A stretch of 64,000 nt of DNA from Candidatus Marisimplicoccus framensis. GTDB lineage: Bacteria > Bacteroidota > Bacteroidia > Flavobacteriales > Flavobacteriaceae. The stretch spans positions 1,046,403 through 1,110,402 of the forward strand of contig CAJIZN010000001.1 in NCBI GenBank assembly GCA_905182065.1, read 5' to 3'. The stretch's first letter is position 1; every line of letters begins with the position of its first letter. The notes below the pieces were generated by a model. The model made no database searches. It was not told the DNA's origin and was given only the letters and a program-made list of their open reading frames with translations. A program made the position numbers and the translations under genes. Positions 14,696-16,328 of the stretch are shown here, piece after piece.

Positions 14696-14887
14696 TTAGA
14701 TAACTTTTACGTTAACAGCATTTAAACCTTTATTACCTTCTTTTAATTCAAATTCTACTTTATCTCCCTCTGTAATCCTGTCAATAAGACCTGAAACATG
14801 AACGAAATGTTCTGTATCGTTATCATCTTCTTTAATAAAACCAAATCCTTTGGCCTCGTTGAAGAATTTTACTAATCCTGTACTCAT
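14696..14887 (-). CDS. Cold-shock protein (CspA family), copy 1
   Basis: MSTGLVKFFNEAKGFGFIKEDDNDTEHFVHVSGL: RNP1 KGFGFI and RNP2-type HFVHVS. Confidence 0.95.
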   Translation of the reverse strand: MSTGLVKFFNEAKGFGFIKEDDNDTEHFVHVSGLIDRITEGDKVEFELKEGNKGLNAVNVKVI

Positions 14888-14939
14888 ATTTTAATTTTTA
14901 TAAATTTTAGCGAAAATACTCTAAAATTAAGTTTAAAGC

Positions 14940-14968
14940 AAAAAAAAAGTCCCAATAGGGACTTTTTT
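14940..14968. terminator. Duplicated intrinsic terminator between csp copies
   Basis: Same A-tract/GTCCC-AATA-GGGAC/T-tract hairpin, 291 bp after the first. Confidence 0.85.
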
Positions 14969-14986: not shown

Positions 14987-15178
14987 TTAGATAACTTTTA
15001 CGTTAATAGCATTTAAACCTTTATTACCTTCTTTTAATTCAAATTCTACTTTATCTCCCTCTGTTACCCTGTCAATAAGACCTGAAACATGAACGAAATG
15101 TTCTGTATCGTTATCATCTTCTTTAATAAAACCATATCCTTTGGCCTCGTTGAAGAATTTTACTAATCCTGTACTCAT
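14987..15178 (-). CDS. Cold-shock protein (CspA family), copy 2
   Basis: 63 aa, differs from copy 1 only at F/Y (KGYGFI), I/V (DRVTEG) and V/I (NAINVKVI). Confidence 0.95.
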   Translation of the reverse strand: MSTGLVKFFNEAKGYGFIKEDDNDTEHFVHVSGLIDRVTEGDKVEFELKEGNKGLNAINVKVI

Positions 15179-15247
15179 ATTTTAATTTTTAATAATTTTA
15201 GCGAAATTACTCTAAAATTTTAATAAATCAATTTAATTTTAAATTAT

Positions 15248-16328
15248 TTAACGGTTTAGTAGAAAAGACTTTAGGAAATCATTGATATCTCCATTTAATA
15301 TATTATCGATATTTCCAGATTCAAATCCTGTTCTTACATCCTTTACAATTTTATATGGATGTAGCACATAATTTCTAATTTGTGATCCCCATTCAATTTT
15401 TTTCTTTGAATCTTCTATCTTTTTTTTCTCTTCATTGTTTTTTTGAATTTCAATTTCATAAAGCTGAGATTTAAGAAGCATTAAAGCTTTTTCTTTATTA
15501 TCTAGTTGGGATCTTGTTTCAGAATTTGCAATAGTAATACCAGTAGGCTTATGTTTTAGTCTAACTGCTGTTTCAATTTTATTTACACTTTGACCACCAG
15601 CTCCCCCTGATCTCATTGTGTCCCATGATAAATCTGAAGGATTAATTGTGATATCAATTGTATCATCTACAAGTGGATAAACATATACTGAAGCAAATGA
15701 TGTATGTCTTTTTGCATTACTATCAAAGGGAGAAATCCTCACAAGCCTATGTACTCCATTTTCTCCTTTTAACCAACCAAATGCATATTCACCGTCAATT
15801 TGAATTGTTGCAGTCTTAATTCCTGCAACATCCCCTGATTGATTATTAAGTTCTTTAATCTTAAAATTATTTTTCTCTCCCCACATTAAATACATCCTCA
15901 TAAGCATCTCAGCCCAATCACAAGATTCTGTACCACCTGCGCCAGCAGTTATTTGAAGTATAGCACTCATAGAGTCTTCCTTCTTACTTAACATCATTTT
16001 GAATTCAACATCCTCAACTGAAATAAGTAATTCTTCAAAAGATTTATTTATTTCATCTACGCTAACCTCATTATTAATAAGAAATTCGCTTAAAACGATT
16101 AAATCATCATATTGAGTGTTTAGATTTAAGAAGTCAGATAACTGTTTCTTTAAGTTTTGAATTTTCTTAACAGTATGTTGAGCTTCTTTCGGATTTGACC
16201 AGAAGTCAGCAGCTGACGACTCTTTTTCTAGACTAATTAGAGTCTTTTCTTTTGATTCAGCGTCAAAGATACCCCCTTAACGTATCAATACGATTCCTAA
16301 CTGCTTTAATATTTTCTTTTGAAAACAT
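15248..16328 (-). CDS. prfB: Peptide chain release factor 2 with programmed +1 ribosomal frameshift
   Basis: Main frame ([14 protein letters not shown]) extends upstream through [17 protein letters not shown]...; frame 0 starts at ATG 16328: [21 protein letters not shown], then TGA; shift at CTTTGAC. Length minus 1 is 1080 nt (360 codons). Confidence 0.95.
16262..16277 (-). promoter_or_regulatory. RF2 programmed frameshift site: AGGGGG TAT CTT TGA C
   Basis: Internal SD-like AGGGGG (16272-16277) 3 nt upstream of slippery CTT-TGA-C (16262-16268). Confidence 0.94.

Follow-up and report, generated by a model that had tools for sequence, protein, structure and literature searches.

A conserved hairpin upstream of the prfB frameshift site as a candidate second 5′ stimulator of RF2 autoregulation

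The 64,000-nucleotide (nt) stretch of the Candidatus Marisimplicoccus framensis genome analyzed here (contig CAJIZN010000001.1, positions 1,046,403–1,110,402; hereafter, the window) carries prfB, the gene for release factor 2 (RF2), with an in-frame TGA early in its reading frame. We suggest, with a probability of about 0.7, that this gene contains a functional RF2 autoregulatory +1 frameshift site plus a short upstream messenger RNA (mRNA) hairpin acting as a second 5′ stimulator beside the Shine-Dalgarno (SD)-like element. Comparison with about 240 relatives, the Flavobacteriaceae set of which comprises 195 distinct frameshift loci, establishes at the level of sequence that the predicted structure is conserved, that its position is exact, that its codons are constrained and that it is absent from frameshift-free prfB genes. 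The original prediction for this locus, an intact programmed +1 frameshift in prfB, did not include a hairpin beyond the SD.

The window encodes a complete RF2 across a predicted +1 frameshift

The prfB gene spans positions 16328–15248 on the minus strand (Table 1). The sequence and its translation confirm the coordinates initially assigned to it, with ATG 16328, TGA 16265–16263 and the shift context AGGGGG-TAT-CTT-TGA-C, as well as the arithmetic by which 1081 nt minus 1 makes 360 codons including the stop, and hence 359 amino acids (aa). Within the wider minus-strand context, TTAAGGGGGTATCTTTGACG, the SD-like hexamer AGGGGG (16277–16272) lies three bases ahead of CTT, the slippery CTTT overlaps the in-frame TGA (16268–16262) and the TGA is followed by C 16262. 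The 16-base shift motif occurs once in the window. A matching anti-SD is retained in the genome's own 16S ribosomal RNA tail, GGAAUACCUCCUUUC (also given as GGAATACCTCCTTTC), and the predicted SD:anti-SD duplex has an energy of about -12.7 kcal/mol.

With one base removed at the shift site, translation runs through to 15248 as one protein of 359 residues. This fusion scores 483.5 bits against the NCBIfam RF2 model TIGR00020 over residues 8–356, compared to 415.8 for the truncated 249-aa open reading frame (ORF); the Pfam PCRF and RF-1 domains are both present, and residues 7–355 align with Escherichia coli RF2 (1gqe) through the junction LRGYLD. These matches identify the +1 fusion as a complete RF2, its N-terminal domain aligning across the junction in the shifted frame. 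One prfA and one prfB are present in the genome, which comprises 1.23 Mb on two contigs and is approximately 88% complete. In about 20 near relatives, uncultured marine Flavobacteriaceae-type genomes such as MED-G11, the frameshift site is identical, and a base-count error is therefore very unlikely. The family match across the junction and the conservation in relatives thus support the frameshift as first proposed. As read from its motifs, the site is a classical RF2 autoregulatory +1 frameshift of a kind whose wide occurrence in Bacteroidia is already known, with 72% of 726 prfB genes of this class reported to have it (PMC8710568). Its mechanism is established: when RF2 is scarce, the ribosome pauses at UGA and slips (PMC8710568, PMC12421855).

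In the +1 frame, a stop lies at 16279 and the first ATG, GTG or TTG at 15997, giving a mechanical ORF of 249 aa; as there is no earlier +1-frame start, a mechanical ORF track falls 110 residues short. The loss of these residues had been expected of any automatic annotation, which holds for the mechanical track but goes too far otherwise: the E. coli prfB entry in RefSeq is a joined coding sequence (CDS) of two pieces with the note 'programmed frameshift', and in the RefSeq-derived records examined the prfB CDS spans the shift site.

Table 1. Elements of the prfB frameshift site in the window; positions with a minus sign are relative to the P-site codon CTT.
Feature	Coordinates	Strand	Basis
prfB ORF0: ATG 16328, 21 codons, in-frame TGA stop	16263..16328	-	sequence and translation
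prfB ORF1, +1 frame: GAC 16264–16262 to the stop at 15248	15248..16264	-	fusion translation
Predicted hairpin CGUA-UUGA-UACG, -24 to -13	16281..16292	-	clade folding, codon retention, class-wide tests
SD-like AAGGGGG, -10 to -4	16272..16278	-	sequence
Slippery CTTT: tRNA-Leu slip from CUU (16268–16266) to UUU (16267–16265)	16265..16268	-	sequence, conserved in relatives
TGA-C: weak RF2-recognised A-site stop, sensor of the RF2 level	16262..16265	-	sequence; mechanism from literature

A predicted hairpin is retained upstream of the SD in the window's clade

Just upstream of the SD, the prfB mRNA of the window can fold into a short hairpin (Table 1), with a possible outer pair A16294–U16279 past a U16293/U16280 mismatch. 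Most of its clade has a longer stem, AACGUA-UUGA-UACGUU, whose 3′ end lies at -11 and whose predicted energy is about -4 kcal/mol; most near relatives' hairpins fall between -4 and -6 kcal/mol. At one locus (L008), both arms are altered together, giving AGCGCA-UUGA-UGCGUU. The codon at -24 is CGT or CGC and the codon at -15 is ACG or GCG in 21/21 clade members, in the combinations CGT:ACG or CGC:GCG, although these 21 sequences are related and do not represent 21 independent events. Among the RF2 genes of the clade, which is AT-rich, 80% of the 207 arginine codons are AGA, 3.4% are CGT and none (0%) is CGC, and the threonine codon ACG and the alanine codon GCG are used at 4.5% and 3.4%, respectively. 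This retention of rare codons across the clade supports the weak hairpin predicted in the window.

Flavobacteriaceae possess two types of frameshift site

The 195 Flavobacteriaceae loci split into 118 with an SD and 77 that are SD-less. SD-containing sites carry CGC..GCG or CGT..ACG at -24..-22/-15..-13, and the 3′ end of the predicted hairpin falls at -11 in 70 and at -13 in 41 of the 118. At SD-less sites, the hairpin mostly occupies the position of the SD (-23 to -6, or -17 to -3). The stems there are GCCUU..AAGGC or GCCUA..UAGGC at -23..-19/-10..-6, and further GUCUAG..UUAGAC, CGUCUUGG..CUGAGACG and AGCGCC-UUGA-GGCGCU; one SD-less site reads GCCUUG-ACAAAC-UAAGGC. For the commonest SD-less type, the predicted SD:anti-SD energy weakens from about -12 kcal/mol to about -2.6 kcal/mol, and on the tree, presence of the SD is associated with RCG at -15 (LR = 76). 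A lost or altered anti-SD as the cause of SD-less sites was rejected where testable, as the 16S tails recovered from SD-less genomes retain CCUCC (15 of 32 genomes gave no pattern match).

Within the window's genus (16S tail of L003; G000 and G189), the 16S 3′ end reads GGAAUACCUCC, and in the other Flavobacteriaceae checked GGAACACCUCC. Together with the prfB sequence AAGGGGGUAU, the 16S end of this genus would allow ten contiguous pairs.

Folding, codon choice and position point to conserved pairing

At SD-less sites, the region from -27 to -4 has a mean folding energy of -5.64 kcal/mol, lower than in any of the 212 downstream windows of these genes (minimum, -5.28). Against a synonymous-codon null, folding gives z = -14 for SD-containing and z = -22 for SD-less sites. 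The homologous positions of frameshift-free prfB genes of Flavobacteriaceae average about -1.1 kcal/mol; the comparison of frameshift with frameshift-free genes yields, not corrected for phylogeny, p = 1e-8 (SD-containing, -33..-10) and p = 4e-10 (SD-less, -27..-4). RCG at -15 occurs in 1/27 frameshift-free genes, a set in which one member (L161) looks mis-sorted. This locus was placed there by script, yet its sequence, CGCCTTGACAAACTTAGGCACTATCTTTGAC, is that of an SD-less frameshift site bearing the hairpin. An energy test limited to -36..-13 was weak because it excluded the outer pairs at -12/-11, and was repeated with the window extended to -10.

Moreover, paired positions change together on the gene tree, with p = 0.0023 for -22/-15 at SD-containing sites and p = 0.0056 (-19/-10) and 0.014 (-22/-7) at SD-less sites, compared to p = 0.43–0.99 for three control pairs. 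Folding becomes weaker when arms are exchanged between taxa (p = 4e-5; 40 sites from Bacteroidia families outside Flavobacteriaceae). Among SD-containing Bacteroidia sites outside Flavobacteriaceae, 25/26 have a 3′ arm whose end lies exactly at -11, flush with AAGGRGG (-10 to -4), and 300 synonymous recodings place it there in a mean of 5.8 and a maximum of 10 of the 26. Conserved pairing backed by compensatory change is thus supported by these comparisons, strongly with respect to position and codon choice and moderately with respect to covariation.

Similar stems occur in other classes

Stems ending at -11 also occur farther afield, in named records that outside Flavobacteriaceae are few, one per genus. 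Alphaproteobacteria (Shinella, Sinorhizobium, Tistrella and Methylobacterium) have stems of 7–8 base pairs (bp) that differ in sequence, Enterobacteriaceae have a GGAACG/CGUUCU stem or a variant of it, and Parabacteroides and Bacteroides have stems of the AGCGC/GCGCU type. A phylum-wide pattern with too strict a downstream spacing returned two spurious matches only. Viral contigs, considered as a source of prfB, gave 57 motif matches, none of them RF2. Prevotella Lak phages (MK250020, MK250022, MK250024 and MK250025) carry an RF2 homologue that shares about 52% identity with the RF2 of the window.

The hairpin most likely aids slippage

Bacteroidia ribosomes sequester the anti-SD on the 30S platform, and bS21, which the window's genome encodes, is one of the proteins hiding it in Flavobacterium johnsoniae (PMC8710568). 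We suggest that the upstream hairpin most likely serves as an additional 5′ stimulator that promotes the forward slip, either stacking on the duplex of SD and anti-SD or pulling the mRNA upon refolding. With the stem ending at -11 and a duplex of SD and anti-SD that can start at -10, end-to-end stacking of the two helices is possible; where the SD is present, the hairpin may thus stack coaxially on the duplex, stabilize this pairing and help to free the sequestered anti-SD. Where the SD has been lost, the hairpin may take over the role of the duplex: by refolding where the mRNA exits, it would draw the mRNA forward by one base. What we infer is frameshift stimulation, coaxial stacking and pulling by a natural prfB hairpin. 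At slightly better than even odds, this reading extends to the cassette of Bacteroidia, Alphaproteobacteria and Enterobacterales as a whole, which would then contain an overlooked, SD-flush 5′ hairpin stimulator that in many Flavobacteriaceae has replaced the SD, giving rise to SD-independent, structure-driven frameshifting.

Several observations weigh against a stimulatory hairpin. In E. coli reporters, efficient shifting is seen with short RF2 cassettes that lack the upstream stretch. Within its clade, the window has the weakest hairpin, at -1.1 kcal/mol and, taken alone, z = -0.15. Formal covariation is moderate, with 17/500 and 2/500 alignment shuffles reaching the score and the other counts unremarkable. 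Five Flavobacteriaceae loci (L101, L103, L106, L131 and L190) have CTTTGAC with neither an SD nor a clear hairpin, reading CTA/TTA AAC CAN TAT CTT TGA C. In addition, the hairpin is absent from the records of Bacilli (Listeria, Priestia and Paenibacillus), Fusobacterium and Acinetobacter and from 19 sites of the phylum's other classes, so that a universal hairpin is not supported. Given these taxa and the Flavobacteriaceae that lack both elements, the hairpin is not generally required.

As an alternative, prfB might contain a plain classical RF2 frameshift, its upstream bases being conserved to avoid a competing SD-like sequence and the pairing being incidental. We consider this unlikely: it would fit the weakness of the window's own stem, but SD avoidance predicts neither the matching of one arm to the other, nor correlated changes at paired positions, nor a fixed end at -11, nor a hairpin at SD-less sites. 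Somewhat less probable still, the hairpin could be real and serve another role, as an insulator of the SD from upstream CCUU, as a roadblock to the following ribosome or in altering mRNA decay. CCUU is indeed frequent at -22..-19 of SD-containing Flavobacteriaceae sites, where it could pair with the AAGG of the SD, and upstream stem-loops have been proposed as insulators in luteoviruses (PMC5009743); however, SD-less sites place the hairpin at the position of the SD duplex, a better fit to a stimulator than to an insulator. A pseudogene or sequencing error, for which nothing speaks beyond the interrupted frame, is highly improbable and was rejected, as all near relatives share the site, the gene is the sole prfB of the genome and no further interruption occurs.

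Relation to known recoding systems

The stimulator reading adds one element to a well-described system. The window's prfB shares with the known bacterial prfB frameshift the AGGGGG-TAT-CTT-TGA-C context, the RF2 fusion, the single copy, the SD and the weak TGA-C stop; it differs in the extra hairpin just 5′ of the SD, which in many relatives replaces the SD. Two surveys of the prfB frameshift describe the SD, the slippery sequence and the stop only (PMC12421855, PMC3711429). F. johnsoniae prfB belongs to the same class, retaining the frameshift with an occluded anti-SD, and its authors hypothesized further, unnamed cis or trans elements (PMC8710568). The F. johnsoniae site reads AGCGC-CUUGGU-GCGUU-GAGGAGG. 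The prfB primer sequence published in that study spells the same hairpin, although the word 'hairpin' is absent from the paper. None of the open-access papers found mentions a naturally occurring hairpin 5′ of the prfB SD, which apparently has not been reported before.

There are precedents for upstream structure as a stimulator. In a 70S translation system, an engineered upstream hairpin acted at CUUUGA with about 60% of the stimulation given by an SD (PMC6321510). It is likewise an upstream intra-mRNA duplex that stimulates a +1 slip at the RF2 slippery site, but its stem is an artificial one of 12 bp, unlike the natural prfB stems of 3–8 bp. In T4 gene 60, a 5′ stem-loop has been proposed to pull the mRNA forward, likewise at the mRNA exit (PMC5009743), although there the ribosome bypasses a long coding gap, in contrast to the one-base slip of prfB.

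The RF2 frameshift is a textbook case of +1 recoding whose cis-elements are already listed; a conserved hairpin locked in position would be an addition to that list. If its proposed role is true, it would offer an answer to how the anti-SD-hiding ribosomes of Bacteroidia run a supposedly SD-dependent frameshift, and F. johnsoniae strains and ribosome-profiling data with which this question can be addressed already exist.

Genes downstream of prfB

Just downstream of prfB on the minus strand, two tandem 63-codon cold-shock-protein genes (14696–14887 and 14987–15178) differ at 4/192 bases. They have in common an AT-rich leader on the same strand, TTTTAGAGTA(A/T)TTTCGCTAAAA (about 14890–14940 and 15180–15225), which contains an inverted repeat, TTTTAG..CTAAAA, as a possible 5′ untranslated region element.
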